46,492 nucleotides of DNA from Bacteroidales bacterium (GTDB taxonomy: Bacteria; Bacteroidota; Bacteroidia; Bacteroidales; M50B96), in assembly GCA_021740905.1 (NCBI GenBank), contig JAIOYV010000053.1, positions 1-46,492 of the forward strand, read 5' to 3'. The notes under the pieces were generated by a model. That model ran no database searches. It was not told the DNA's origin and saw nothing but the letters and a program-made list of their open reading frames with translations. The position numbers and the translations under genes were made by a program. Of this stretch, positions 1,899-45,240 are shown one piece after another. The first letter of the stretch is position 1. The number at the start of each line of letters is the position of its first letter.

Positions 1899-3020
1899 AT
1901 GGTAGAAGAAATTACAAAAGGCAAATTGGAAGAACAGGAGTTCTCCATCAACATGGGGCCACAGCATCCTTCCACTCACGGTGTTCTTCGGATGATGCTC
2001 AAATTAAAGGGTGAAACAGTTAAGGAAGTGAAACCACAACTTGGATATATCCACAGGGGTATTGAAAAAATGTGCGAGAAACTTACTTATCAGCAAATTA
2101 TTCACCTCACCGACCGGCTCGATTATATGTCGGCCAACATCCTGAACGAGGCGGTTTGCCTTACTGTTGAGGATGCCCTCCAAGTGGAAGTTCCCGAGCG
2201 CGTGCAGTACATTCGTACCATTATGGGTGAGCTTAACCGTATTGCTTCCCACCAGTTGTGGTGGTGTGCTTTCGGGATGGACCTGGGTGCGCTGACTACC
2301 TTTTTCTATGGTCTTCGTGACCGGGAAAAGATTCTCGATATTTTTGAAGAAACCATCGGTGCACGGTTGCTTTTAAGCTACAATGTGCCAGGTGGACTTA
2401 TGAATGATATTCATCCTAACTTCCAGAAAAAGGTAAAAGAATTCATAACCTATTTCAGAAAGAAACTACCAGAATACGATGCGCTGTTAACCGGCAATCC
2501 TATCATGCAGCAACGCACCAAAGGAATAGGAATGTTGACAAAGGAGCAAGCGATAGCTTATGGTGTAAGCGGCCCTTCCGGAAGAGGTTCGGGTTTTTCA
2601 TGTGATGTCAGGATTCATCAGCCATACAGCGCCTACTCAAAGGCCGACTTCAAAGAAATACTGTATCACGAAGGGGATACTTTTGCCCGCTACAAAGTGC
2701 GGATTGACGAAATGTGGGAGTCGATGAATATTATTGAACAACTGATAGACAATATCCCGGAAGGAAACTATACAGCCAAAATGAAACCTGTCATCAAGTT
2801 ACCGGTGGGTGAATATTACACTAGGGTTGAAGCTGTACGTGGCGAGTTTGGGGTGTACATTGTCAGCGACGGGAACAAAACGCCTTACCGGGTGAAATTC
2901 AGGTCGCCCAATTTCAGCAACCTTTCTGCCCTTGACCTAATGGCCAGGGAACAGAAGATTGCCGACTTGATCGCCATTGGCGGTTCCATGGATTATGTAA
3001 TCCCAGATATGGACAGGTAA
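1899..3020 (+). CDS. nuoD: NADH-quinone oxidoreductase subunit D
   Basis: 49-kDa-type subunit that forms the quinone-binding pocket with NuoB. It is related to the large subunit of [NiFe] hydrogenases but lacks the nickel ligands. Visible marks are MGPQHPSTHGVLR near the N-terminus, a GYIHRGIEK stretch, and the C-terminal SPNFSNLSAL region that ends with a short acidic tail. At 373 residues it is slightly short but complete. It is co-transcribed with nuoC and nuoH. Confidence 0.96.
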   Translation: MVEEITKGKLEEQEFSINMGPQHPSTHGVLRMMLKLKGETVKEVKPQLGYIHRGIEKMCEKLTYQQIIHLTDRLDYMSANILNEAVCLTVEDALQVEVPERVQYIRTIMGELNRIASHQLWWCAFGMDLGALTTFFYGLRDREKILDIFEETIGARLLLSYNVPGGLMNDIHPNFQKKVKEFITYFRKKLPEYDALLTGNPIMQQRTKGIGMLTKEQAIAYGVSGPSGRGSGFSCDVRIHQPYSAYSKADFKEILYHEGDTFARYKVRIDEMWESMNIIEQLIDNIPEGNYTAKMKPVIKLPVGEYYTRVEAVRGEFGVYIVSDGNKTPYRVKFRSPNFSNLSALDLMAREQKIADLIAIGGSMDYVIPDMDR

Positions 3021-3057
3021 ATTTTGCGGTTTAACAGAAACATAACAGCATTAGAAT

Positions 3058-4146
3058 ATGGAATTTAATATTTACGATCTCACTTCATTTACAAGCAGCT
3101 TCGATCAATTATTGATGGAGAACCTTTCTCCGTTTTGGGCCGTGGCTATTGAAATGATCCTGATTGGCGTTGCCATTCTTGCATTTTATGCCGTCGTAGG
3201 TTTGTACTTGGTTTATGCCGAACGAAAGGTTTGTGCTTTTATGCAATGCCGTGTGGGGCCAAACAGGGTAGGACCTTATGGCTTTTTTCAAACCATTGCC
3301 GACCTGATCAAACTTCTGATGAAAGAGTTGATCCCCATTAAAAATGCGGATAAATTGCTTTTCAACATTGCCCCCTACATTGTGATCATTGCTTCGTTTA
3401 TGGCCATTGCAGCTATTCCGTTTGCAAAAGGCTTGCACGCCATCGACTTCAATATTGGGATATTCTATATCATGGCGGTTTCGTCGCTTGGTGTGATTGG
3501 AATTCTGATTGCAGGATGGTCGAGCAATAATAAATATTCATTGATTGGAGCTATGCGTAGCGGGGCACAAATCGTGAGCTATGAATTATCGGTTGGGCTT
3601 TCGTTGATTACCATTGTGATCCTGTCAGGGAGCCTTCAGCTTTCAACCATAGTAGAAGGGCAACGCGATGGATGGTTCCTCTTCACCGGGCATATCCCGG
3701 CACTCATCGCCTTTTTGGTGTTTTTAGTGGCAGCAACTGCCGAAACCAACCGTGGACCTTTTGACTTGGCCGAAGCTGAATCGGAATTGACTGCCGGTTT
3801 CCACACCGAATATTCGGGGATTAAGTTTGCCTTCTTTTTCCTTGCCGAATACATGAATATGTTTATTGTAGCTTCGATAGCCGTCACTATGTTCCTAGGT
3901 GGTTGGATGCCGTTCCATGTGGGCGGTTGGGAAGCTTTCAATAATATAATGGATTATATCCCGCCATTTTTCTGGTATGCTGGAAAAACAGCTTTTATTA
4001 TATGGGTGATGATGTGGTTTAAATGGACTTTCCCCCGTTTGAGGATCGACCAACTGCTCACATTGGAGTGGAAATACCTGCTTCCAATCAACCTTGTAAA
4101 TATTATTATAATGGCATTTGTAGTATTAATGGGCTGGCACTTTTAA
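3058..4146 (+). CDS. nuoH: NADH-quinone oxidoreductase subunit H
   Basis: Membrane subunit of complex I that closes the quinone chamber and couples it to proton translocation. The 362-residue protein has about eight hydrophobic segments and the family motifs [20 protein letters not shown] (near residues 55-76) and [20 protein letters not shown] (near 230-250). The gap to nuoD is 37 bp, one of the larger ones in the operon. Confidence 0.96.
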
Positions 4147-4148
4147 TC

Positions 4149-4628
4149 ATGAGAAGTATTATCAATTATCTGAAAGAAATATTTGGTGCGGTTGCTGCCT
4201 TATTTAAAGGGATGAGGGTCACTGGATATTATTTCTTTCATCCAAAGGAAATCGTCACACAGCAATATCCCGAAAACCGGGCCACACTGACCATGTTCGA
4301 TCGTTTCAAGGGCGAAGTAATTATGCCCCATAACGAAAATAACGAGCATAAATGTACAGCCTGTGGGATATGTGAAATGAATTGCCCCAACGGCTCCATC
4401 GAAATCATCAGCGAGATGAAAGTAAATGAAGAGGGCAAGAAAAAGAAAGTACTGTCGAAACACATCTATCATTTGGGCATGTGCACGTTTTGTAATTTGT
4501 GTGTAAAGACTTGTCCGTCGAACGCCCTGGCAATGGGACAGGACTTTGAACATGCTGTTTTCGATCGTTCAAAATTGAATAAAGTGTTAAACAAACCGGG
4601 ATCGGTTTTAATGAAAGGGACCGAATAA
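4149..4628 (+). CDS. nuoI: NADH-quinone oxidoreductase subunit I (2x[4Fe-4S])
   Basis: Ferredoxin-like peripheral subunit carrying clusters N6a and N6b. The 159-residue protein has two Cx2Cx2Cx3CP motifs, CTACGICEMNCP and CTFCNLCVKTCP. The reading frame is open upstream to 4023, but that part lies inside nuoH; the ATG at 4149, two bases after the nuoH stop, gives the usual NuoI N-terminus with an amphipathic helix. Its stop codon overlaps the nuoJ start by one base. Confidence 0.95.
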   Translation: MRSIINYLKEIFGAVAALFKGMRVTGYYFFHPKEIVTQQYPENRATLTMFDRFKGEVIMPHNENNEHKCTACGICEMNCPNGSIEIISEMKVNEEGKKKKVLSKHIYHLGMCTFCNLCVKTCPSNALAMGQDFEHAVFDRSKLNKVLNKPGSVLMKGTE

Positions 4629-5140
4629 TGAGCATTCATGAACTAATGTTTTACCTGTTTTCGGGAATGATACTTTTGTTCTCGGTGTTGACAGTTACAA
4701 GCCGCCGAATTTTGCGGGCAGCTACCTACCTCTTATTTGTATTGATATCCACTGCAGGGATTTATTTTATGTTGAATTACCAATTCCTGGCTGCGGTTCA
4801 ATTAACATTGTATGCTGGAGGTATTGTGGTGTTGATCATCTTTTCAATTTTATTGACAAGCCACATCACCCACAAGTTCGAACCAATCGGAATCAAAAAA
4901 ATGGTTTTTACTATTGTGGCGGTGGCCGCCGGAGCTATCCTGACTATTACGACCGTTCTGAATTATGGATTCAATACGGTGGTGGCCTCGTCTCAAAACC
5001 CCGATATGCAATTGATCGGTGGTAGTTTACTGGGCTACGGCAGAGATGGCTATGCACTGCCTTTCGAGGTTATCTCTGTCCTGTTGCTGGCTGCTATATT
5101 TGGTTCTATCGTAATTGCTAAAAAAGAAAAATCGAAATAA
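4628..5140 (+). CDS. nuoJ: NADH-quinone oxidoreductase subunit J
   Basis: Small membrane subunit (170 residues) with five predicted transmembrane helices. It shows the family pattern of a glycine-rich third helix (QLTLYAGGIVVLIIFSILL). Its ATG shares a base with the nuoI stop (TAATG), so translation is probably coupled. The C-terminus is lysine-rich (KKEKSK), as expected for a cytoplasmic tail. Confidence 0.95.
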   Translation: MSIHELMFYLFSGMILLFSVLTVTSRRILRAATYLLFVLISTAGIYFMLNYQFLAAVQLTLYAGGIVVLIIFSILLTSHITHKFEPIGIKKMVFTIVAVAAGAILTITTVLNYGFNTVVASSQNPDMQLIGGSLLGYGRDGYALPFEVISVLLLAAIFGSIVIAKKEKSK

Positions 5141-29834: not shown

Positions 29835-30674
29835 TTACTTTATCGGAACCTTCTTTACAGAATTGGATAAATCGAAATTTATTGTGTCGGAAAGAAATTT
29901 TAACGTATCGATAGTCATCCACAGATCAATAGAAGAGCCCAATTTTATGTATGAGTCCTGCCCCGATTGGGGATCCTGATAAAACACCTTTGCCCTTGCC
30001 GAGTCTATGGCATTTTCAATAGTTTCATCGTAAATTACTCCACCAATGTTTAAATAGGTATGGCTTGCCAACAAGCGGGCCGAATCGAGAGATAGGGTCA
30101 CTAACATAGGCACCAAGGTTACTTCATCGCTTAGTCCTCCGCCCAGTACCAAGTCAATCATAGCTCCCTTCGAAACCAGGTTGCCGGCTGGTAATTCCAC
30201 GCCATTGTTCATTTGTCTGAGAACGATATCCCTTGCCAAATCGGGTTGGTAGCTAATTGTTCCTACTACCAGGCCAATGTTTTCGAGCATTGTTATGGCT
30301 TTCCTGAACGATAAGTCAATTAGGTCTGGCATGAGCACTTTTTCGGCTTCGAACGCATTTATGGTGAAATAAATGGTGCGGTTTTTCTTTACAAAAAAAC
30401 CCGAATCGGGATACTGTTCTATAATGGTTCCGCCAGGCCAACCACTAACAAATACCGAGTCGATAATGGAATAGCGTAGGTTCTGCTCGTGGCATATCGC
30501 AACAGCTGAGTCAAGACTTATGTTCTTAAAACCGGGCACCGGATAGGCTTTCCCATGAAGGGTGTAAATCCGCAATCCCCACAAAGAGCCAGCTACAAGT
30601 ACAATAGCAATCAGCAAAGCGACAAGTAGGTGCTTAAGAAATTGACGGCTTATCAAAAATTTCAGAATTTCCAT
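29835..30674 (-). CDS. Membrane-anchored PASTA-domain protein
   Basis: A 279-residue protein with one N-terminal transmembrane helix (about residues 12-30) and three extracytoplasmic PASTA repeats (about 45-110, 111-180 and 181-255). The repeats show the usual PxxxxxSLDSAVAIxxxxxL and VLMPDLIDLSFRKAITML patterns. PASTA domains bind peptidoglycan or beta-lactam-like ligands in kinases and PBPs; here there is no kinase or transpeptidase part. An upstream GTG (30701) would add nine residues, but it lies at the edge of a repeat element. The nearby ddl fits a peptidoglycan role. Confidence 0.85.
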   Translation of the reverse strand: MEILKFLISRQFLKHLLVALLIAIVLVAGSLWGLRIYTLHGKAYPVPGFKNISLDSAVAICHEQNLRYSIIDSVFVSGWPGGTIIEQYPDSGFFVKKNRTIYFTINAFEAEKVLMPDLIDLSFRKAITMLENIGLVVGTISYQPDLARDIVLRQMNNGVELPAGNLVSKGAMIDLVLGGGLSDEVTLVPMLVTLSLDSARLLASHTYLNIGGVIYDETIENAIDSARAKVFYQDPQSGQDSYIKLGSSIDLWMTIDTLKFLSDTINFDLSNSVKKVPIK

Positions 30675-30703
30675 CTGGTTTATATTGTCATTTATATCCA
30701 CCC

Positions 30704-30742: not shown

Positions 30743-30747
30743 CAGTT

Positions 30748-30846
30748 GTTATTCAATTGTCATTCGGTTGTCATTCAATTGTCATTCTGTTGTCATTCAA
30801 TTGTCATTCTGTTGTCATTCAATTGTCATTCTGTTGTCATTTATTG
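30748..30846. repeat. 11-bp tandem repeat array (nine units)
   Basis: Nine consecutive 11-bp units, mostly alternating GTCATTCAATT and GTCATTCTGTT, so the array also reads as a 22-bp repeat. The first and last units are degenerate. The array begins 74 bp upstream of the PASTA gene start on the opposite reading direction, i.e. inside its promoter region. Confidence 0.9.
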
Positions 30847-30994
30847 TAATTCATTATCAACAATAAATGTGTGGCAAAGATAAAATTTTAGATGGATGTT
30901 TATTAGAAGTTGAGAGTTGAAAAGTTTGGGAGTTGAAAAGTTTAAAAAGTTCAAAGTTGAAAGGTTCTGAGTTTGTTGATTATCCGAACTAGTA

Positions 30995-31115: not shown

Positions 31116-33257
31116 CTACTGCTCCACATCTTTCATCGATAGCTGTATCCTTTTTCGTTGAACATCGACCTCGATTACCTTTACCTGCAAATGCTGGTGA
31201 AGTTTTACCACCTCGGAAGGGTTGGAGATAAATTGGTTGGCCATGTTCGAAATATGGACGAGGCCATCCTGCTTGGCTCCAACATCGACAAATGCACCAA
31301 AGTTTGTGATATTCGTGACTATGCCCGGTAACACCATGCCAACCTCTAGGTTGTGGATCGATTCCACATCTTTCGAAAACTCAAATACTTTGGCTTTTTT
31401 GCGTGGGTCGCGGCCTGGTTTTTCTAATTCCTTTATTATATCGGTAAGGGTGGGCAGGCCGATGGTGTTGGTAATATAGTTTTCCAGTTTTATGGCTGAA
31501 TGAAGGGTTTTGTTGCCGATCAACCCATCTATTGTAACCCCCAAATCTTTGGCCATTTTTTCAACTATCGGGTAGCTTTCCGGGTGGACAGCAGAATTGT
31601 CGAGAGGATATTCAGCTCCCGATATCCGAAGGAAACCGGCACATTGCTCAAACAATTTTTTACCCATACGGGGTACGTCCATTAGTTGTTTGCGTGAAAT
31701 GAACGGCCCATTATCCGAGCGGAGCTTCACAATATTTTCGGCAAGTTGTGGCCCTAAACCCGATACATAAGTAAGGAGGTGTTTGCTGGCTGTGTTCACT
31801 TCAACGCCCACCTGATTTACTGCACTCTCCACCACCATGTCGAGGCTTTGCTTTAATTTGGCCTGATCCACATCGTGCTGGTATTGCCCAACACCAATCG
31901 ACTTGGGGTCAATCTTTACCAGTTCGGCCAAGGGGTCCATCAAGCGGCGACCGATGGAAACTGAACCACGCACCGTGACATCGTACTGAGGAAACTCCTG
32001 CCGGGCAATCGAAGAGGCCGAATATACCGAAGCCCCGTCTTCGCTCACCATAAAAACTTTTACCTCGCGGTCGAGCTTCAAACGTTTCACAAACGATTCG
32101 GTTTCGCGGCTCGCCGTCCCATTCCCGATGGCAATGGCTTCGATTTTATACGTGCTCACCAAATTCGTCACTTTCTTATAGGCCATCGCAACCTGATCTT
32201 GTGGCTTGTGTGGATAGATTGTTTCGTTATGCAACAGGTCGCCTTGTTCGCTTAGGCAAACTACCTTGCAGCCAGAACGATAGCCCGGGTCGATGGCCAA
32301 TACCCGTTTTTGTCCAAGTGGGGCAGCCATCAACAATTGGTGCAGGTTTAGGGCAAAAACCTTTATGGCTTCCAGGTCTGCTTTTTCTTTTGATGATTGG
32401 GCAAACTCGGTTTCGATGGTGGGGGCAAGCAAACGTTGGTACGAGTCTTTCACAGCTAGGGCAACCTGGTCGGCAGAATCATTGTCCCCTTTCACAAAAA
32501 ATCGGTCCAACATTTCGAGGGCCTTTTCTTTCGATGGAGATATGGACACCCGCAGAAAGCCTTCCTTTTCGCCCCGTCGGATGGCCAACAGCCGATGCGA
32601 TGGGATTTTGGAGATTTTTTCCTCAAAACCGAAATAGTCCTTGTACTTGTTCCCTTCTTCCTCTTTATCTTTCAGTACCTTCGAGGTCAACATGCCCTCG
32701 CGCTCGAACATTCGACGGAGCGAATTCCTTGCCTTAATATTCTCACTGATCCATTCGGCGATAATGTCGCGCGCCCCGGCCAGGGCATCTTCTTCGGTTG
32801 CTACTTCTTTGTTCAGGAATCTTGCAGCCTGTGCGTAAATATCCTGGTTGTGCTGTGCCATTATTATTTTTGCCAAAGGCTCCAGTCCTTTCTCGCGGGC
32901 CATGGTGGCGCGGGTTTTCCGTTTGGGTTTGTAGGGCAGGTACAAATCTTCGAGATCGGTTAAATTGGTACAGGCTACAATTTGGGCTTTCAGTTCGGGA
33001 GTCATTTTGCCCTGCTCTTCAATGGTATTTAGTACGGTTTCTTTGCGGCTTTCAAGCTCCAGGATTTTTTCGTTGCTCAGTTTTATTTCTGCTATGGCCA
33101 CTTCATCGAGGTTTCCTGTACGCTCTTTTCTGTATCGCGAGATAAAAGGGATGGTCCCCCCTTCTGCAAATAAATCGAGGCAGGCTTTTACCTGCCATTC
33201 TTTGATCAGTAATCTATCTGCTATTTGTTGAGCTATTGATTTTGTCATTTTATTCAA
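31116..33257 (-). CDS. tex: Tex, S1-domain RNA-binding protein
   Basis: A 713-residue nucleic-acid-binding protein of the Tex family (transcription accessory protein). Domains in order: helical Tex N-terminal region with FISRYRKERTGNLDE, a YqgF/RNase H-like domain starting near VLAIDPGYRSGCKV (about residues 320-440), a helix-hairpin-helix part near LRSDNGPFISRKQLMDVPRMG, and a C-terminal S1 domain with VGMVLPGIVTNITNFGAFVDVG. Either the ATG at 33257 or that at 33248 may be the start. A TATATTTG -7 box sits close upstream. Confidence 0.96.
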   Translation of the reverse strand: MNKMTKSIAQQIADRLLIKEWQVKACLDLFAEGGTIPFISRYRKERTGNLDEVAIAEIKLSNEKILELESRKETVLNTIEEQGKMTPELKAQIVACTNLTDLEDLYLPYKPKRKTRATMAREKGLEPLAKIIMAQHNQDIYAQAARFLNKEVATEEDALAGARDIIAEWISENIKARNSLRRMFEREGMLTSKVLKDKEEEGNKYKDYFGFEEKISKIPSHRLLAIRRGEKEGFLRVSISPSKEKALEMLDRFFVKGDNDSADQVALAVKDSYQRLLAPTIETEFAQSSKEKADLEAIKVFALNLHQLLMAAPLGQKRVLAIDPGYRSGCKVVCLSEQGDLLHNETIYPHKPQDQVAMAYKKVTNLVSTYKIEAIAIGNGTASRETESFVKRLKLDREVKVFMVSEDGASVYSASSIARQEFPQYDVTVRGSVSIGRRLMDPLAELVKIDPKSIGVGQYQHDVDQAKLKQSLDMVVESAVNQVGVEVNTASKHLLTYVSGLGPQLAENIVKLRSDNGPFISRKQLMDVPRMGKKLFEQCAGFLRISGAEYPLDNSAVHPESYPIVEKMAKDLGVTIDGLIGNKTLHSAIKLENYITNTIGLPTLTDIIKELEKPGRDPRKKAKVFEFSKDVESIHNLEVGMVLPGIVTNITNFGAFVDVGAKQDGLVHISNMANQFISNPSEVVKLHQHLQVKVIEVDVQRKRIQLSMKDVEQ

Positions 33258-35492: not shown

Positions 35493-35517
35493 TTGATCCC
35501 TGAATATATAAAAAATT

Positions 35518-35541
35518 GCCTTCAGGATTATTCCCCAAGGC
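35518..35541 (-). terminator. Terminator of the 427-residue lipoprotein gene
   Basis: On the minus strand GCCTT and AAGGC form a stem followed by AATTTTTTATA. It lies 48 bp past the stop codon at 35589. The sequence resembles the terminator at 36886-36908, also 48 bp after its gene. Confidence 0.55.
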
Positions 35542-35588
35542 CATTGATTTTATCTCATTATTGAAGAAATATCTTCAAATGTCAGCTT

Positions 35589-36872
35589 TTACTTGAAGAA
35601 TTCAGCTTTTTTTCCTTTAGTATGCACAGTCATTTTCGTGCCGGTAGGTGAAAATTCATGATGGGTTGCATAAGCTGTTCCTTCATACCAAACATCACAA
35701 TCACAGACAAAAGTATGGGTCCAGGCATTATAGGTGCCAGTTCCATCGACGGAACCAACTTTTCCATCCCCAAATGTAAAAGGTTGATCAGGAATCACAA
35801 TTGTCTGGTATTCATCATCAGAGAAATCGTAATAAACAGTAGCTCCTGATCCTGGCCAGTCCCAGAAATTTGTATTATGGATACGATTTTCGACAACAGG
35901 ATCAAGTGTGAAAAATACGCCAGACACTCCATAACCGGCTTCGTCACAATCAAAAAACCCGGTAAAATATTCCATGTTAAAAATGTCGATGTAAGGTTTA
36001 TTGATGGTAAGCACTGCCTCCGAGTGTAAAGGGATAGTGTCAAACTCTCCGGGTATCAATTTTATCTTTAAGATGGACGATTTATTGAGGGGAAGAGAAT
36101 CATTGTAAAAAGTAAGGGACAATGTTCCAACATTCGAATTTGCAGGGATAATATTTTCAGTTTCTGAGATTGTAAAGTGTGTTCCCTCTATCATATTTAC
36201 CACTTCGACTGTTTCGGCGACTGATACGATTTCAAATTTTACCGGCACATCGTAAGGCCTTACCGAACCTGTAGTTGATAAGGATAGTTGAAAGACGGTT
36301 GTTTTGTAGATTCCGCTTGAATCTGGTTCGATTGTGAAGTCATGGATGGAGGTGACAAATGAAACAAAGGTCAAGTAAGGCTTTGATACGGTAATGATTG
36401 CCTCAGAACCATTGGGTGCTGGGTCAAATTTGCCAGGGAGCAAGTTTATTTTCAAAACGACATCTTTGTCGAATGGGATATTATTGTAAAGCAAGGTAAG
36501 AGAAATTTTGCCCTCATTTGAATTTGCCGGAACAATGAAACTATCGGCTGATAAGGTATAATGTACCCCCTTAATCATATTAATGTTATCTTCAGTTTCG
36601 ATTATTGTCCTGATTTCAAAATTTACTATCACATCATGAGGCAGTATTGGCCCCGTTGAGGAAATTGAAATTTCGATTTCACTCGTATTACCAACCCAAT
36701 CAATTGTGTGGGTTACAACAGGATTTATAAAAGACACATAAGTTGGGTCGGGTGGGTTCGTTTCATCTTTTTTGCAAGATGTTACTACTGAAATTAAAAT
36801 TACGGAGAAAAGGATCAGGTATGTTCTCAGGGTGTTTTTTTGATTTATTTTAGCAAATATAACGAAATACAT
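35589..36872 (-). CDS. Surface lipoprotein with two tandem domains and a shared C-terminal domain
   Basis: A 427-residue lipoprotein (lipobox ending VVTSC, Cys33). It contains two similar domains in tandem (about residues 44-165 and 166-294), each with a G.HYT/HFT...IPANSN.G..SLT core resembling Calx-beta/DUF4843-type folds. A third domain (about 301-427) is homologous to the C-terminus of the 308-residue lipoprotein next to it. It is the last gene of the Sus-like region and probably sits on the cell surface. A TATATTTG box lies inside its first codons, which raises doubt about the start. Confidence 0.7.
   Translation of the reverse strand: MYFVIFAKINQKNTLRTYLILFSVILISVVTSCKKDETNPPDPTYVSFINPVVTHTIDWVGNTSEIEISISSTGPILPHDVIVNFEIRTIIETEDNINMIKGVHYTLSADSFIVPANSNEGKISLTLLYNNIPFDKDVVLKINLLPGKFDPAPNGSEAIITVSKPYLTFVSFVTSIHDFTIEPDSSGIYKTTVFQLSLSTTGSVRPYDVPVKFEIVSVAETVEVVNMIEGTHFTISETENIIPANSNVGTLSLTFYNDSLPLNKSSILKIKLIPGEFDTIPLHSEAVLTINKPYIDIFNMEYFTGFFDCDEAGYGVSGVFFTLDPVVENRIHNTNFWDWPGSGATVYYDFSDDEYQTIVIPDQPFTFGDGKVGSVDGTGTYNAWTHTFVCDCDVWYEGTAYATHHEFSPTGTKMTVHTKGKKAEFFK
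36854..36861 (-). promoter_or_regulatory. Candidate -7 box overlapping the lipoprotein start
   Basis: The minus strand reads TATATTTG, matching TAnnTTTG exactly, but it lies 11 bases inside the ORF from the ATG at 36872. If used, translation must begin downstream, where only non-standard codons give a lipoprotein signal. Confidence 0.3.
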
Positions 36873-36885
36873 GAAATAAAAATGA

Positions 36886-36908
36886 CCTTCAGTTTTTATT
36901 CCTGAAGG
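36886..36908 (-). terminator. Terminator after the 308-residue lipoprotein gene
   Basis: On the minus strand CCTTCAG and CTGAAGG form a seven-base stem with an A-rich loop, followed by TCATTTTTATTT. It lies 48 bp past the stop codon and 14 bp before the ATG of the next gene, so it may reduce expression of the last gene of the operon. Confidence 0.6.
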
Positions 36909-36955
36909 CCATTGATTTTATTCAATCGTTGAAATCAATTTACATCAATTCCAGA

Positions 36956-37882
36956 TTATTTCATTAGATCAGCTTTCCTACCTTTATAGTAAGTGAATGT
37001 TTTTGTTCCCAAAGAAGAAAACTCGTGATACGTGGCATAAATCCCACCGCCGTATTCGGCATCGGTTTGAGTCCAGAATGTACCGGTGCAAGCATCGTAT
37101 TCGCCATATCCTTCAACCGAACCAACAGTTCCGTCACCGTAAGTAAATACTTGGTTCGGAATATCAATAGTTTGGTAAATATCCCCAGAGAAATTATAAT
37201 AGATCAGAGATCCTGAAGCTGCCCAATCCCAGTAATTATCATTGTAAATCCTATTCTCGAAAGTTGGATCTACTGTGAAATTAACAGGGTAATCGCCGTA
37301 TCCTTCTTCATAACAATTAAATGCACCCGTAAAATCTTCAATTACCAGATTGCAAAGTGTTTTATAAAGAGTAGAAATGGATGCACCTGGCAATGTTTGT
37401 ATATCAGGGCTTGCATTTACCCTGCCATCATTAAGGAACATTTCGTACACATCGCCGTCCAAAGTATTTACCCAACCATAAAAGCGGAAGGCCATACCTT
37501 CGGTGATATCATTTGGAGAATTGAGTGCGGAAAACATGCCCAATATGTCATTCATGTTTATCCCAATATAAGAGGGAAAGGTAGAAACATTGGTTAATGT
37601 CCCCACTTCTTTTACTTCACCAGACAAGATATAAGCACATTTTACATCAACAGAAACTACATTGTTGTAGGGGATGGTTACTGTGAAACCGCCTTCAAAA
37701 ATTGCTGCATCTTCAGGCAGGAAGTTCAAGTTGAATTGCGCATCGGGAGCTACAAAAGCAACAGCATCCACAATCATATCATCATAGTTTGGCATTCTTA
37801 GGTCAGGCTCTTTATTGCAAGAAATAAAGAAAGCCAAAACAGCCAGACTAATGACCAATATTATATTTATTTTTTTCATCAT
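36956..37882 (-). CDS. Sus-operon surface lipoprotein
   Basis: A 308-residue lipoprotein (signal peptide ending FFISC, Cys22) encoded 25 bp after the SusD-like gene. The N-terminal half is a beta-rich domain; the C-terminal half (about residues 180-308) contains FTGAFNCYEEGYGDY, ENRIYNDNYWDW and a closing YYKGRKADLMK, and is homologous to the end of the 427-residue lipoprotein. By position it is a SusE/F-like accessory binding protein, though sequence similarity to SusE/F is not evident. Confidence 0.72.
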   Translation of the reverse strand: MMKKINIILVISLAVLAFFISCNKEPDLRMPNYDDMIVDAVAFVAPDAQFNLNFLPEDAAIFEGGFTVTIPYNNVVSVDVKCAYILSGEVKEVGTLTNVSTFPSYIGINMNDILGMFSALNSPNDITEGMAFRFYGWVNTLDGDVYEMFLNDGRVNASPDIQTLPGASISTLYKTLCNLVIEDFTGAFNCYEEGYGDYPVNFTVDPTFENRIYNDNYWDWAASGSLIYYNFSGDIYQTIDIPNQVFTYGDGTVGSVEGYGEYDACTGTFWTQTDAEYGGGIYATYHEFSSLGTKTFTYYKGRKADLMK

Positions 37883-37907: not shown

Positions 37908-39551
37908 TTATAAATCCCAAAATACACCATCGGTAGCAATTACTTTTTGACCCGGGGCATTCGTGTTCAAATCAAGTTCATCCTGATCGTAAGGGAATGA
38001 CAATGGATAACTTCTTGTACACTGAGTTGGTACGGGGCCATTCCCATCGGGGCCTCCATTTGCCGCATCATTATTCGCATCAAACAAAACAGGATATCCT
38101 GTTCGCCTGTAATCATTGTACTGATCGACATGGCTGCCACCATAATTGGCAATCCACTTTTGAGTCATGATAATTTCCAGTTGCTTACTCGCGTTTGCCG
38201 CATCGTATTTGGCCAACACAGCCGCAATGTAATCATCCACTTCAGTAGAACCAGACAATACAGGAACAACCTGGCCACCCACTTTTGTAACCATATCACA
38301 AACATCATCGACCTGGGCAAAAGAAGCAACCATTGCTTCTTCTAGTAAAGCACGGGCATCACCACCAACACCGTCATGTGCCAGCTCTGCCTGAATGTAT
38401 AATGCATCGGCATAAGTAAGCCAACGAACCGGTGCATCACCAGCACCACTGTTTGCATTTGCCTGTCCACCTGTACCATCGTCGAATTTACCACCACAAG
38501 CATACATTCCCATTACAGTAAATGTAGAACGGCCTGCATGATCTTTATTAACCCCAACAGATCCAAAATAAATTGAAATAAAATCGCCATCCCGGTATTC
38601 AACAGGATTTTCTGAATCAGCACCCCCAGCTTTTTGATTATAAAAGTAATATGGGATACGAGGATCTTCAATATTGGTAAAGATATTTGGGTTGATGCCT
38701 TTTAGAATCTCAAAAAACCATGGGCTGATGTAATTGCTGATTTGACTTCCGTTCCATTCGCCGGCAAATGCAGGATGCCTGTTTTCGGGGTTATCGGCAG
38801 TGCCAAATTGAACCATCATACTTCCATCGGCTTGCATTAAATCACCGGCAAGCAAACTTGTAACTGCACCGGCATCCCACAGGCTAGTACTTCTTACCTG
38901 ATTATATAACTTTAATTTAATCGTATTTGCAGTGCGTACCCATTTGTCAAGGTTTCCACCGAAAACCAAATCGTCAGCACCAGGAGTTTTGATATTGGCA
39001 GCTTCTTCGTTTAAAATATCAGCTATACCATCATCAATCATTGCAAACAACTGAGGGTAGATTGCTGCATCATCATCAAAATTAGGATTAAAGTTATCTT
39101 TCTGGTTCGCTTCAGAGAAAGGTATGTTACCCCATAAGTCAACCATTTGGCTAAAAACATAAGCCTTGAGGATTTTAGCAATACCGCGGTATTGTAAAGC
39201 ATCTTCTTCAGTTCCTAATGCAATTAGCAGATCAATATCCGGAATTATACCATAATATAAATCCTGCCAGAAAGTACCAATACAATAATCATTACCGGAG
39301 ACACCATATTGGTCTACCGATTCGCGTGTGGAAAGCTGGTGGGTATATACTGCACAAAGCCAACCGAGTTTATTGTAGTCTATCGAAAAATCATCCGAAA
39401 TATCATACTCAATACCTGGGAGCAACTGATCAATCTGTGCTACGGTAGGTTGATTCGGATCTTCATTCACATCGAGAAAGTCTTTTGTACATCCAAAGAA
39501 TACAAAAGCGATTGCAAATGAAACTATTATATATTTTTTCATTTTTTCCAT
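37908..39551 (-). CDS. SusD/RagB-family nutrient-binding lipoprotein
   Basis: A 547-residue outer-membrane lipoprotein (lipobox ending VFFGC, Cys21 from the first ATG) that binds the substrate and closes the SusC channel as a lid. The start after the cysteine, TKDFLDVNEDPNQPT, and the long helical TPR-like body fit the SusD-like_2 subfamily, as do the late QWIANYGGSHVDQYNDYRRTGYP residues (in part ITQKWI...). The gene is 21 bp downstream of the SusC-like gene. SusD-like_2 proteins serve varied substrates; none can be named here. Confidence 0.92.
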   Translation of the reverse strand: MEKMKKYIIVSFAIAFVFFGCTKDFLDVNEDPNQPTVAQIDQLLPGIEYDISDDFSIDYNKLGWLCAVYTHQLSTRESVDQYGVSGNDYCIGTFWQDLYYGIIPDIDLLIALGTEEDALQYRGIAKILKAYVFSQMVDLWGNIPFSEANQKDNFNPNFDDDAAIYPQLFAMIDDGIADILNEEAANIKTPGADDLVFGGNLDKWVRTANTIKLKLYNQVRSTSLWDAGAVTSLLAGDLMQADGSMMVQFGTADNPENRHPAFAGEWNGSQISNYISPWFFEILKGINPNIFTNIEDPRIPYYFYNQKAGGADSENPVEYRDGDFISIYFGSVGVNKDHAGRSTFTVMGMYACGGKFDDGTGGQANANSGAGDAPVRWLTYADALYIQAELAHDGVGGDARALLEEAMVASFAQVDDVCDMVTKVGGQVVPVLSGSTEVDDYIAAVLAKYDAANASKQLEIIMTQKWIANYGGSHVDQYNDYRRTGYPVLFDANNDAANGGPDGNGPVPTQCTRSYPLSFPYDQDELDLNTNAPGQKVIATDGVFWDL

Positions 39552-39572
39552 ATTTAAGAATTGTTATAATGT

Positions 39573-42500
39573 TTAAAACCTAACTTTCAAGTTAAAACTA
39601 ATCCTCCGTACCGAAGGTGCAGCAGAATACTCAATACCTTGAACGTTGGTAGCTCCGTAGGTATTCAATTCCGGGTCTATGTTGCAATACTCAGGAATAC
39701 CAGGTGCATAGAACCACAAGTTTCTGCCGGTCACACTAAGATTAATTCCTCCGAATGGTAGCTTGTCGATTAATTTTTTCGGTAAATCGTAGCCAAGAGT
39801 AATTTCAGAAACACGGAAAACAGTAGCGTCATATATATTCCACTCACTTGCAGCGTTGATAGCAAAAGAGTTTCCAAAGTATAGGTTATTTGATGAAACT
39901 TGAGTTGTATTTGGAATTTTATTTCCTCCCTCATCTAAAAGAGGTTCTCCTGTATTCGGATCGCCATAGAAACCAGGTATTACAAAGGAGTGCTCACGAT
40001 CTTCAGTATCTTTTGTCACACCACGTCCTAACATACTAAGGATAGAATTGGAGTAAAATTCACCACCGTGAGTGTAATCCAATAATACATTCAGGTAAAA
40101 TCCTTTATACGTAAATGTATTGGCAATGCCCAGTCGATAATCCGGGTTAGGATCGGCTATGGTAGCATTTTCGATATCCAGGATTAATAATCCGGTTTGT
40201 TGGTCAATTAATAAATTGCCTTCATCATCGCGATAATTTTGTGTACCTCTTAAAACACCATAGGGTTCGCCAACTTCAAATACAGGTTGTGGATCACCAA
40301 AAAGACCTGATAAAATCATTCTTTCATTCCCTTCAGCGATGGCTAAAACCTCTGAGTTATTTTTGGTATAGGTTGTATATATATTCCAACCAAATCCATT
40401 CGGGTTGTCAAAAGGAGTGATGTTGAGACCAATTTCAATACCCTTATTCTCCATTTCACCAGCATTGGTAACTTTACTAAAATAGCCTGATGAAGCTGCA
40501 GTACGGATAGCTACAATTTGATCTGTCGTTTTCCTGTCGTAGTAGGTGAAATCGAGTCTTAATTTGTTTTGGAAGAAAGCAATATCGGTACCTACTTCAA
40601 CTTCTGTGGTAAACTCAGGCTTTAAGCCCGAAGAAAACGCTACGTCTGGCACTTGCATGGCAGGAATCCCCAAAAATGGAAATACAGGTGTATCGGTTAG
40701 CTTACTACTTCTAAGCTGATAGATATTGTGTATTTGGTAAGGATCGGCATCATTACCGGTTTTCGCCCACGAAGCCCTAATTTTTCCAAAGCTAACTATG
40801 TCTTTTGGTAGGTCGAACACTTCGGTGAAAATGAAGGAGGATGAAACAGACGGATAGAAATAGCTGTTTTTGTCTTCGGGCAATGTGGATGACCAATCAT
40901 TACGTCCTGTAAAGTTCAAATAGAATAATCTTTTGTATCCCATCGAAACATCAGCAAACATCCCATAGAGCCTTCTTTCCGAGAAGTCGCCTCCAAATGG
41001 GGAAACATTGATTGTATTATCAAGATCGTAAATACCAGGAACCCTCATTACGGTTCCAATATACGCCTGACGGTCGGTAGTTCTTTGGTTTACATTATGC
41101 CCTAAAATGGTGCGTATGTTCAAATCCTCTGAAATATCTTTGTCAATGGTCAAGAGTAAATTTGACTCAATTTCCTGCGACCAAATATCGTCATCAATGA
41201 TAGCACCATTACCAGCATAAGCCCTGGAACCCTGGTCAACAATTTGCTGCCTTCTTTGTACAAGGGTATTCACCCCCAACTGATAAGAGAAGCTCAACCA
41301 GTCTGTGAAATCGTAACCAATGTTGGCACTTCCGATAATCCGGTCCATATTGGTAATAACCTTGTTATGTTCCCACGACCAGAGTGGATGGTCAAATTGA
41401 CCAGGACCGTTTGGGGTTAAGTTTTCTCCTGTTACCGGATCGGTATACGGTAATGACATATCCCATGTGCGGCCTAACCAAAGCGTACGTGCAAACGAGG
41501 AGGCAGTACCTGCATCCGATGCCTGGTTATTCCCAAAAAGACCACCTTGCTGGGTCCCTTTTGAATAGGAGAAATTCCCGCCAACTTTCAAGCCATTGTC
41601 CAACTCGGTACTTCCACCAAGGCCAATACTATTTCTGTCGAAACTTGAATGGGGGATATAACCATCATTCGAAAGGGCAGAAGCGGTAAGGCTAAAAGCC
41701 GATTTTTCATCACCACCGGATATTGAAACAGAGTTCTCAAATACATGTCCTGTCCTGAATAAACTTTTAACATTATCAGGCTGGGCTACATAAGCAACGC
41801 TATCACCCATTTCGGGAAAGGCATTGGCATACATGCCCCAGGTAGGGATTGAATCGAGAGAATCGAAACGGGGACCCCACGAACCATTTGCATTGGCATA
41901 ACTAAAGTTTACACCATTCCCATAAGTATTCTGATAATCTGGCAAATTAGAGATATTCTCGGTAGAGTACGAGCTCGAGTAAGTGACCTCAAGGCCTTTT
42001 TTCCCTTTGGTTGGATTACCCGACTTTGTACGGATGACAATAACCCCATTGGCAGCCCTCGAACCATACAGCGCAGCTGCAGCAGCACCTTTCAATACAC
42101 TAACCGAAGCAATGTCGTTAGGGTCTAAGGTAGAGATACCACTACCATAAGCACCACCTGTCGAACTTTGGTCGGTAGTGTTGAATTGTTGGTTACTATA
42201 TGGGATACCATCAACCACAAACAGGGGTTGGTTATCGCCATAAAACGAAGAATTACCACGGATGGTAATCCGGGTAGCTGTACCAGGCGCACCAGACGAA
42301 TTGTTTACTTGCACACCGGCGACCTTGCCTTTTAAGCTCCTTAAAACGTCAGGTTCGGCTTTCTGTGCAATTTTGTCTTCACTAACAGTGGCCACCGCGT
42401 ATCCCAACGCCTTTTCGGAACGTTTAATACCGACCGCCGTCACGACCACCTCTTCAACTTTAAGTGCATCCACTTCCATAGCTACATCAATAGTACTTGA

Positions 42501-42764
42501 TGCACCTATGGGTATTTCCATCATCTTCATCCCTACGAAAGTATACTGAAGCGTTTTAGCATCAGCCGGAACTTCGAGGGAGTATTTACCATTGGCATCA
42601 GTAACCGTCCCGATGGTTGCACCTTTCACAACCACAGAGACCCCGGGAAGGGTAGTGCCATCATCGGCACCGGTCACTGTTCCTGAGATTTGACGCTTCT
42701 GTGCGTGGACAAGAGTAGTGCCCACAATCACAAAGAAGGCCAAGAGCAGAGTAAACTTTCTCAT
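39573..42764 (-). CDS. SusC/RagA-family TonB-linked outer-membrane transporter
   Basis: A 1063-residue TonB-dependent transporter. Signal peptide to Ala21 (LVHA), then a carboxypeptidase-regulatory-like domain (about residues 25-112), a plug domain opening with VEEVVVTAVGIKRSEKALGYAV and containing GNSSFYGDNQPLFVVDGIPYSN, and a long 22-strand barrel ending in aromatic Phe1063. It imports its substrate with energy from TonB. It is the first gene of an operon with the SusD-like and two lipoprotein genes. No sigma/anti-sigma pair or hybrid sensor is adjacent. Confidence 0.95.
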   Translation of the reverse strand: MRKFTLLLAFFVIVGTTLVHAQKRQISGTVTGADDGTTLPGVSVVVKGATIGTVTDANGKYSLEVPADAKTLQYTFVGMKMMEIPIGASSTIDVAMEVDALKVEEVVVTAVGIKRSEKALGYAVATVSEDKIAQKAEPDVLRSLKGKVAGVQVNNSSGAPGTATRITIRGNSSFYGDNQPLFVVDGIPYSNQQFNTTDQSSTGGAYGSGISTLDPNDIASVSVLKGAAAAALYGSRAANGVIVIRTKSGNPTKGKKGLEVTYSSSYSTENISNLPDYQNTYGNGVNFSYANANGSWGPRFDSLDSIPTWGMYANAFPEMGDSVAYVAQPDNVKSLFRTGHVFENSVSISGGDEKSAFSLTASALSNDGYIPHSSFDRNSIGLGGSTELDNGLKVGGNFSYSKGTQQGGLFGNNQASDAGTASSFARTLWLGRTWDMSLPYTDPVTGENLTPNGPGQFDHPLWSWEHNKVITNMDRIIGSANIGYDFTDWLSFSYQLGVNTLVQRRQQIVDQGSRAYAGNGAIIDDDIWSQEIESNLLLTIDKDISEDLNIRTILGHNVNQRTTDRQAYIGTVMRVPGIYDLDNTINVSPFGGDFSERRLYGMFADVSMGYKRLFYLNFTGRNDWSSTLPEDKNSYFYPSVSSSFIFTEVFDLPKDIVSFGKIRASWAKTGNDADPYQIHNIYQLRSSKLTDTPVFPFLGIPAMQVPDVAFSSGLKPEFTTEVEVGTDIAFFQNKLRLDFTYYDRKTTDQIVAIRTAASSGYFSKVTNAGEMENKGIEIGLNITPFDNPNGFGWNIYTTYTKNNSEVLAIAEGNERMILSGLFGDPQPVFEVGEPYGVLRGTQNYRDDEGNLLIDQQTGLLILDIENATIADPNPDYRLGIANTFTYKGFYLNVLLDYTHGGEFYSNSILSMLGRGVTKDTEDREHSFVIPGFYGDPNTGEPLLDEGGNKIPNTTQVSSNNLYFGNSFAINAASEWNIYDATVFRVSEITLGYDLPKKLIDKLPFGGINLSVTGRNLWFYAPGIPEYCNIDPELNTYGATNVQGIEYSAAPSVRRISFNLKVRF

Positions 42765-43133: not shown

Positions 43134-44117
43134 CTAGAGTCCGGCAAGCATCTCAGTTATTTTGATGTGGTATGCACAATCGAAGCTTCCGATTTTGCAT
43201 GATGTTAAGCCATGTAATCCACAAGGCCGACATGCTAGTTCTTGATCAATCTGAATAATTTTTGAATTATCGGACAAGGGTCCAAAGCCAAATTCGGGGA
43301 TGGTTGAACAGAATATCGCACGTACAGGGGCATTCATTGCCGAGCAAAGATGCAAGGGAGCCGAATCGTTTACATAGTTCATCGTGGCATCCTTCATTAA
43401 CGCTGCCGATTGCAACAAACTGAGGTGGCCTGCCAATAGATGGCAGTTTGGATTGCCCGAATCAAGCCTTATTTTTTCGCAGGCATCTACATCGCCAGGC
43501 CCGCCGAGTAGGTATACCATAAAATTATGGGGCACTTGCTTGATAAACTCGACCCATCGATCGGCAGGGTATTGCTTGGTGTACCATACAGAAGTGGGAG
43601 AAACGGTAATAAATGCTTGATTTTTATATTCAGCTACTTTCAGAAAATCCTTTTCAGAAGGATAAAGCTTTGGTTGTTTTGTAACGCTGCCCACGAAATC
43701 GGCTATCAGCATTTGGTTTCGCTCAACCTCATGCTTGCCGGTGCCTATTTCGTGTTCAATTTTTTTTGAAAAAAGGAATGAGAAAGGGTTCTTCCTGAAA
43801 CCTATCCTTTCGTTTGCCCCCGAACAGGCAGTGAGCATACCAGTAGATGCAAACCTTTGCAAATTGATTACCTGATCGAATTGCTCTGCACGTACTTGCC
43901 TGATTATCCTCAAAAGTTCGGGGTATTTGGCTTGTTTTTTATCCCAAATCCAAACTCTGGACAGATGTGGATGATTTTGAAGGAGGGCTTCATTTCCTTT
44001 TCGCAAAAGGAAATGAATTTTTGTTTTGGGCTGATGTTCGTGCAGGGCTTCAATCAATGATGAAGCAAGGATCACATCGCCAATAAATGCTGTTTGTATG
44101 AGTAGGATCTTTTGCAT
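43134..44117 (-). CDS. Glycosyltransferase family 9 (heptosyltransferase-like)
   Basis: A 327-residue cytoplasmic GT-B glycosyltransferase of family 9, which builds lipopolysaccharide core or similar envelope glycans. It opens with KILLIQTAFIGDVILASSLIEAL, has a HFLLRKGNEALLQNHP segment, and in the nucleotide-sugar domain shows VSPTSVWYTKQYPADRW and NDSAPLHLCSAMNAPV. The C-terminus has the cysteine set CRPCGLHGLTSCKIGSFDC seen in many family members. It is the last of a group with small lipoproteins; the PKD-type gene ends ten bases upstream. Confidence 0.9.
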   Translation of the reverse strand: MQKILLIQTAFIGDVILASSLIEALHEHQPKTKIHFLLRKGNEALLQNHPHLSRVWIWDKKQAKYPELLRIIRQVRAEQFDQVINLQRFASTGMLTACSGANERIGFRKNPFSFLFSKKIEHEIGTGKHEVERNQMLIADFVGSVTKQPKLYPSEKDFLKVAEYKNQAFITVSPTSVWYTKQYPADRWVEFIKQVPHNFMVYLLGGPGDVDACEKIRLDSGNPNCHLLAGHLSLLQSAALMKDATMNYVNDSAPLHLCSAMNAPVRAIFCSTIPEFGFGPLSDNSKIIQIDQELACRPCGLHGLTSCKIGSFDCAYHIKITEMLAGL

Positions 44118-44784: not shown

Positions 44785-45240
44785 TTACTTGCACGACCAA
44801 GTTGCAGGGTTCAGCAATGTTGTATCGACAACCCACTCAACATCAAGCTCGGAATAAGTTGTCGTTTTTAGGGTGTCGAGGCCATATTCAAATTCTTTAA
44901 ATTGGATCGGCCCTCCACAATAAATCATAGTGGCAATAGTGTCTAAACTGGGGATTTTCCGAAAAGCATAAATTCTACACTCCCTGCTTTCGGCATTGAA
45001 CCTAACATCGGACTCGAAAGCTTCCCGTTCCGATTTCGACCCGCAAAACTCGGGGTAAAACTTATTGTTGGTATCGAGAAAACCTGAAACACCAGCTTTT
45101 AAAAAGAGGTTGGTGTCGTTTACCATGAATGAGGTATCGGGTATATTTCCGATAATCTCGCACTTGATACATTGTTCGCACGAAACGAATCCGAGGGATA
45201 GGACTAGCCCAAAAGCTATAAGAAGAATATTCTTTTTCAT
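44785..45240 (-). CDS. Hypothetical lipoprotein
   Basis: A 151-residue lipoprotein (signal peptide ending LGFVSC, Cys21). The mature part is small and has six further cysteines, including CIKC near the start and a final TWSCK, so disulfides are possible. No family is recognised. It lies 45 bp before the PKD lipoprotein in the same direction. Confidence 0.65.
   Translation of the reverse strand: MKKNILLIAFGLVLSLGFVSCEQCIKCEIIGNIPDTSFMVNDTNLFLKAGVSGFLDTNNKFYPEFCGSKSEREAFESDVRFNAESRECRIYAFRKIPSLDTIATMIYCGGPIQFKEFEYGLDTLKTTTYSELDVEWVVDTTLLNPATWSCK

Follow-up and report, generated by a model that had tools for sequence, protein, structure and literature searches.

Two lipoprotein genes behind a SusCD pair of a Bacteroidales bacterium share an apparently old C-terminal domain and a similar terminator

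The stretch of DNA analysed here (hereafter the window) is 46,492 nucleotides of contig JAIOYV010000053.1 from the Bacteroidales bacterium assembly GCA_021740905.1, in which two lipoprotein genes follow a SusC/SusD (SusCD) pair on the minus strand. Gene B (36956..37882, 308 aa) is the first after SusD and gene A (35589..36872, 427 aa) the second, both as given in the list of open reading frames (ORFs); the two proteins end in the same C-terminal domain, and each gene is followed by a terminator hairpin of similar sequence. We consider it probable that A and B serve a single SusCD importer as accessory surface lipoproteins, that the two genes are old relatives, and that their terminators were copied later and locally. 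A sequence-only reading of the window had instead proposed that the gene's 3' half was duplicated in tandem together with its terminator, after which each copy obtained a different N-terminus, and neither part of that proposal fits well with the comparisons given below.

The shared C-terminal domain

Residues 300-427 of A (35592..35981, minus strand) align without a gap to residues 181-308 of B (36959..37348, minus strand), with 72 of 128 positions identical (56%, E 4e-45), slightly more than the rough half over about 125 residues first reported from the sequence. At the DNA level blastn finds 69% identity over 205 nt within the coding part and a separate block of 84% over 44 nt at the terminators; similarity thus reaches beyond the coding ends, as the sequence-only reading had expected, and it consists of two blocks, coding and hairpin, not one.

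The coding similarity of A and B appears to be old and maintained by selection on the protein, since codon identity is near expectation and A is about as close to genes of other genomes as to B. Among identical residues other than Met and Trp the same codon is used at 35 of 70, where 29.3 would be expected from the codon preferences of nine genes in the window, A and B included (P 0.09), and 42% of third positions in the domain agree. Synonymous sites are near saturation, and a recent tandem duplicate is not what this test indicates. DNA identity over the domain is 61% between A and B; between A and other genomes it is 65% and 66% for the genes of the 304- and 303-aa lipoproteins of G087 (a genome of another family), 65% for locus L055, 62% for the G087 289-aa gene and 60% for G002. 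The G087 304- and 303-aa lipoproteins align with A over 277 residues (47% identity) and 262 residues (50%), N-terminal domain included, and because this domain and the barrel align together, the architecture of A does not appear to be a later graft, contrary to the proposal that the N-termini were acquired after duplication.

The N-terminal part of A consists of two repeats (about residues 39-166 and 167-298, 43% identical to each other over 126 residues), for which we use the label Calx-beta-like; the first is 56% identical to the G087 304-aa protein. A remote kinship of this part with DUF4843 (PF16132) is possible, the match of 20.8 bits (E 3e-4) lying below the curated cut-off of 34.5 bits. 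For the N-terminal domain of B, Pfam and NCBIfam gave nothing at E up to 1, and among the 295 genomes searched it was found only in its own.

No Pfam model reaches its cut-off within the shared domain in the 11 barrel proteins scanned with match regions shown. The 34 domain members collected match 21 Pfam families at E up to 0.1, PF16404 not being among them; the clear Pfam and NCBIfam matches, whose regions were not displayed, are to Ig-like and DUF4843-type models, with six members matching DUF4843, one PF08522 and three the Ig-like PF16403 (E up to 0.1). NF047446 (OmpL47-type) matches three of the 34 (best E 4.3e-5, region not displayed), and as three members also match PF16403, we take these matches to fall in the N-terminal part. 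Neither A nor B matches PF16404 or PF12888 at E up to 1, and PF12888 has no match in the window's whole genome at E up to 1e-5. Sequence searches of the PDB gave nothing convincing (best E 0.19 for B, 1.5 for A and 0.33 for the domain profile), and with a full-length profile only positions up to 136 were matched below E 0.01. The domain would therefore appear to be a diverse Bacteroidota family, assignable to no Pfam, NCBIfam or PDB sequence in the searches made. Among the open-licence titles listed none named this domain or terminator-bordered lipoprotein genes, though unlisted work may exist.

An AlphaFold2 model of the B domain from a five-row alignment (predicted local distance difference test, pLDDT, 81.4; predicted template modelling score 0.77) is an eight-stranded beta-barrel; a single-sequence model of B (pLDDT 41.8) was not used. 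In VIA-align comparisons the model matched BT_2261 (3h3i, Z 9.3), the 146-residue chain 5fq6_E of a SusCD complex (Z 9.0), BT_2262 (5fq8_G, Z 8.6, root-mean-square deviation 2.5 over 101 residues; 5fq7_G and 5fq8_G are BT_2262 by entry name), 3n91 (Z 9.4) and 3rwx (Z 8.9). A Foldseek search against viral models gave nothing at E 1e-3.

The terminator pair

The hairpin behind B (36878..36921, minus strand) has a 12-bp stem, a 9-nt loop and a T tract, with a folding energy of -17.2 kcal/mol, and that behind A (35511..35553, minus strand) is 84% identical to it. Counted from the last base of the stop codon, the shared element lies at 35-78 nt in B and 36-78 nt in A. The sequence-only reading was right that both terminators end equally far past the stop codon, although at 78 nt and not at the 48 bp it gave; its statement that the 3' untranslated parts are alike applies to the hairpins, the stretch between stop codon and hairpin being similar only at the level of shuffled sequence (287 of 2000 shuffles reach the same score).

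In searches of the whole genome (6.54 Mb) the 3' stretch of each gene, apart from itself, significantly matches only that of the other (E 1.1e-5 and 1.2e-5, with 0.02 for the next match), and a repetitive-element origin of the hairpin was rejected because these searches gave no further copy. Behind nine genes of six other genomes, seven of them for barrel lipoproteins, the hairpin sequence did not turn up, 75 to 883 of 1000 shuffles scoring as well. Since the two hairpins are 84% alike while the genes are old, and neutral hairpins of that age should not be, the element may have been copied later or have been constrained in this lineage only; we favour copying. The near-identical terminator needs a cause of its own, separate from the gene duplication.

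Origin of the two genes

What we infer for A and B concerns their surface location, complex formation, a ligand and the mechanism of terminator copying. Each protein would be anchored through a lipidated cysteine, as the lipoboxes suggest (...VVTSC followed by CKKDET in A and ...AFFISC followed by CNKEPD in B, read by eye from the translations), and each would end in the same small beta-barrel on a different N-terminal domain. By analogy with BT2261-2264 of Bacteroides thetaiotaomicron, they may be placed at the outer rim of SusC, where they would assist in capturing or handing over the substrate. A would be a full-length relative of a lipoprotein type that also stands behind the G087 SusCD operon, B having a different N-terminal domain. 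The terminators would owe their likeness to later local copying, either by gene conversion or by duplication of the hairpin as an A-type gene joined behind the operon's own terminator, and this copying would be distinct from the duplication that relates A to B. The C-K-K-D-E-T of A agrees with the surface-export signal of Capnocytophaga canimorsus lipoproteins, C-X-K-(D/E)2-X, as stated in an excerpt of PMC5080379.

A number of observations weigh against this explanation. The C-N-K-E-P-D of B agrees only partly with the rule in that excerpt (PMC5080379), and a terminator separates B from A, so that a transcript common to A and the operon is presumed only. Streptavidins (Z 8-9) and a designed barrel (Z 9.6) match the barrel model as well as BT_2261 and BT_2262 do, Foldseek returned no match to it with an E of 1e-3 or less, and six Ig-like lipoproteins, compared by profile over their C-terminal parts, gave a weak match (probability 8.5%, P 0.004). 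The tree of the domain, built from 17 of the 34 members collected, gives little resolution, and A and B are sisters in the best tree (support 66/84); the three G087 copies as one clade were not rejected (p 0.44), so local duplication may have occurred in each genome. Finally, A and B differ by no more than 1 nt in the spacing from stop codon to hairpin, as is also expected from a single colinear duplication with a constrained terminator.

One version of the preferred explanation goes further and fixes the origin of A: an old whole-gene duplication would have given rise to first- and second-position lipoproteins before the families split, the N-terminus of B then having diverged or been replaced and the hairpin gene-converted. 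We regard this as a serious possibility, though one with less than even chances. G087 has the same order, SusC-SusD-lipoprotein-(111 aa)-lipoprotein, with the 303-aa gene preceded by that of a 111-aa lipoprotein and, before it, that of a 289-aa barrel lipoprotein; a tree of the N-terminal domains joins the A repeats to the G087 303- and 304-aa proteins (64/93), and a tree constrained to hold the barrels of A and of these two together was not rejected (p 0.40). A clade of B with the first-position genes was neither shown nor rejected (p 0.12), however, and identity of the window SusC to its counterparts in G087 and G002 is only 35-37% and that of SusD 24-25%, against 52% and 41% for G140, of another family, whose third gene shows no barrel; the operons are therefore not simple orthologues. 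No A-type gene follows the barrel lipoprotein in L055 or in G003 (L016/L057), and the G002 contig ends there.

A single tandem duplication of the gene's 3' half and terminator within this lineage, with new N-termini acquired afterwards and the terminator held by constraint, is in our judgement quite unlikely. The ungapped domain alignment, the equal stop-to-hairpin spacing, the weakly supported A and B sister branch and the start of gene A, whose ATG lies 5 nt after the B hairpin, all speak in its favour. The near-saturated synonymous sites, the closeness of A to genes of other genomes and its full-length kinship with the G087 genes nevertheless make a simple copy of the 3' half unlikely; saturation and a chance-level leader also contrast with a hairpin kept at 84%, the stem behind A has lost pairs without compensation, and the nine genes of other genomes bear unrelated terminator sequences.

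That the shared hairpins are a coincidence or a common terminator type of this genome is very improbable: AAGGC-type stems are ordinary, and a 13-letter piece of the hairpin with one mismatch occurs at 20 places against 9 for the reversed control, but the longer element has no third copy in 6.54 Mb, and unpaired positions are as alike as paired ones (17/19 and 20/24). Of the 541 pairs of adjacent same-strand hairpins in 989 kb of G087, moreover, 540 stay at a score of 26 or below and one reaches 58; in the window the A/B pair scores 47 and the second-best of 17 pairs 19. This pair scan misses weakly paired hairpins, including one behind the G087 303-aa gene.

Terminators as cassette borders

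SusCD importers act together with accessory lipoproteins, some without a known role according to an excerpt of PMC7618045. It is conceivable, if rather doubtful, that the genes of such lipoproteins are cassettes bounded by direct repeats of a terminator, and that these are sites at which genes are added, exchanged and lost by recombination. In the window, gene A is flanked by two copies of one 44-nt hairpin. In G087 two cassettes, each of a 111-aa and an A-type lipoprotein gene (L014, about 3440-4890; L013, about 2010-3470), are bordered on both sides by hairpins of a single sequence type, one cassette behind the SusCD operon and the other on a 12-kb contig without SusCD; the paired genes (L014 3477-4902 and L013 2105-3426) are 81% and 72% identical in nucleotides. 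When the hairpin behind the 289-aa gene was compared with the 30 kb of L013 and L014, the 3' side of the 304-aa gene scored 62, that of the 303-aa gene 35 and the 5' side of the other 111-aa gene 37, with no other place above 28; the query and these three matches all border cassettes. Two of the four borders carry the exact stem, which has no further occurrence in 989 kb, roughly one fifth of that genome. The other two borders count against the cassette reading, as they have diverged to scores modestly above background (37 and 35 vs 28). The 289- and 303-aa genes (L014 4900-5769 and 3477-4388) share an exact 28-nt run over the last codons and stop and are otherwise diverged.

The A-type gene thus stands between like terminators in both genomes in which it was found, with a hairpin sequence that differs between them, but two genomes are too few to call terminator bordering a mechanism, and the second G087 cassette would be explained simply by a segment of terminator, gene and terminator having been copied as a whole. 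If the reading were true, terminator repeats would offer uptake operons a simple, testable route by which to gain and lose surface proteins.

Spread of the barrel domain

The window's own genome holds two copies of the domain at E up to 0.01. A scan of genome contigs with the B domain alone gave 27 pattern-matching stretches, none of which was confirmed, and one with a seven-row profile gave three loci. A two-row profile matched 8 of 149 genomes; within the order, 30 of 393 genomes matched a 12-row profile, while across the phylum the two-row profile matched 5 of 395, two of them probably by chance; the window's genome is included in each count. The phylum matches in G251 and G298 were dropped, as they lie inside frames that resemble SusC by eye.

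More distant members include lipoproteins adjacent to SusD, proteins with an Ig-like part (PF16403) before the barrel, and stand-alone lipoproteins of 135-144 aa. The last of these (L071, L073, L077, L079, L080, L084) occur, by eye, in a similar gene cluster across several Bacteroidota genomes, and no SusCD was seen in the 3.3 kb covered. In seven of eight relatives with a scanned upstream ORF (L017, L018, L019, L065, L066, L068 and L069) the barrel lipoprotein directly follows a SusD that exceeds the Pfam cut-off; in L020 the upstream ORF has only a sub-threshold SusD match (E 0.0056). The upstream ORF in L014, L055 and L015/L056 is 24-29% identical to the window SusD.

The comparisons of G574 and G140 and of the divergent SusCD pairs indicate that the barrel is a module re-used on several N-terminal domains, of at least three kinds, and with several SusCD pairs. 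Barrels are 51-63% identical although the window SusD and those of G087 and G002 are only 24-25% identical, and in G574 an N-terminal domain of the G140 type is fused to the barrel (no shuffle out of 1000 equalled the score of either half). In the third gene of G140 (368 aa) itself no barrel was found, 130 of 1000 shuffles scoring as well; this lipoprotein runs colinear with the B N-terminal domain over about 100 residues, a likeness that is suggestive only (91 of 1000 shuffles equal, profile P 0.09). The N-terminal part of the G294 protein could be related neither to B, where 900 of 1000 shuffles did as well, nor to the G140/G574 profile. Recurrence on varied N-termini and with distant SusCD pairs suggests a common docking or ligand-binding part. 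The earlier suggestion of an undescribed surface-exposed module of Sus-like operons is borne out in that the domain could be assigned to no catalogued family, often stands behind SusD and has varying N-terminal partners; exposure at the surface is the probable reading.

The locus

The SusC/RagA TonB-dependent transporter gene (39573..42764, minus strand; TIGR04056, E 9.9e-185) and the SusD-like lipoprotein gene (37908..39551, minus strand; PF12771, E 1.4e-50) precede B and A in the order SusC - SusD - lipoprotein B - lipoprotein A on one strand, which matches the order of the BT2261-2264 type. Pfam and NCBIfam scans found no glycoside hydrolase match among these four genes. The only ATG of gene A before its signal peptide (36770-36877) leaves a long stretch ahead of the hydrophobic part; an alternative CTG start (LRTYLIL...) would, by eye, yield an ordinary lipoprotein signal peptide.

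Two genes upstream of SusC (43134-44117 and 44785-45240) match genes upstream of SusC in G002 (56% and 43%), and two others, labelled by eye as PASTA-like (29835-30701) and Tex-like (31116-33257), match G003 genes about 6 kb from its lipoprotein (51% and 63%); these flanking matches suggest a conserved site within the family. The window SusCD pair (37908-42764) is nearer to that of G140 (L098 3163-8042) than to that at the apparent same site in its own family (G002, 37% and 25%), and has likely been replaced at this site, to judge from these identities. Upstream of the gene at 29835-30701 a 22-bp tandem repeat (30745-30853, five copies, 94% match) creates three identical sigma-70-like matches.

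Comparison with known systems

As a fold, the barrel resembles the avidin- and lipocalin-type (calycin-like) barrels, which likewise have eight strands; both lipocalins and avidins are among the Foldseek rows, and avidins reach Z 8-9. Aligned identity in the avidin rows is just 9-12%, and a common fold does not show a common function. Proteins with DUF4843 (PF16132) or the BT_3987-like N-terminal domain (PF08522) bear a weak likeness to the A repeats (DUF4843, E 3e-4), but A has this domain twice and its C-terminal barrel lies outside those models. The surface glycan-binding proteins of the levan and dextran utilisomes are, in an excerpt of PMC7618045, SusCD-associated lipoproteins on the lip of SusC; A and B are alike in being SusCD-linked lipoproteins, but glycan binding is not implied for them.

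The closest parallel is BT2261-2264, the genes of which we take, partly by assumption, to be SusC, SusD and lipoproteins. BT_2262-like proteins, like A and B, have an N-terminal domain and a C-terminal barrel, and the predicted barrel of B aligns to both BT_2262 and BT_2261. Their N-terminus is Ig-like (PF16403), whereas that of A is Calx-beta-like and that of B matched no catalogued family, with neither protein matching PF16404 or PF12888; moreover, A and B carry one barrel family, while BT_2261-like and BT_2262-like proteins are filed under two, the link of PF12888 to 3h3i resting on an E of 0.0057. Among relatives, SusD - Ig-like + BT_2262-like_C - Lipid_bd is a recurring order. At five loci (L089, L090, L092, L094, L095) the end of a SusD-like ORF is followed by a PF16403 Ig-like lipoprotein and then a PF12888 lipoprotein; three of five Ig-like lipoproteins scanned from PF12888 loci match PF16404, and the Ig-like proteins of L090 and L095 fall short of that model in their C-terminal part.

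The structure of BT2261-64 contained an oligopeptide, as noted in an excerpt of PMC7782687. The model does not single out BT_2261 and BT_2262 among barrels, but because the operon position is the same, a fold-level kinship of the domain with them is plausible, and the complex in which these two are seen (5fq6/5fq7/5fq8, 3h3i) has, like the A/B locus, two accessory lipoproteins together with SusC and SusD.

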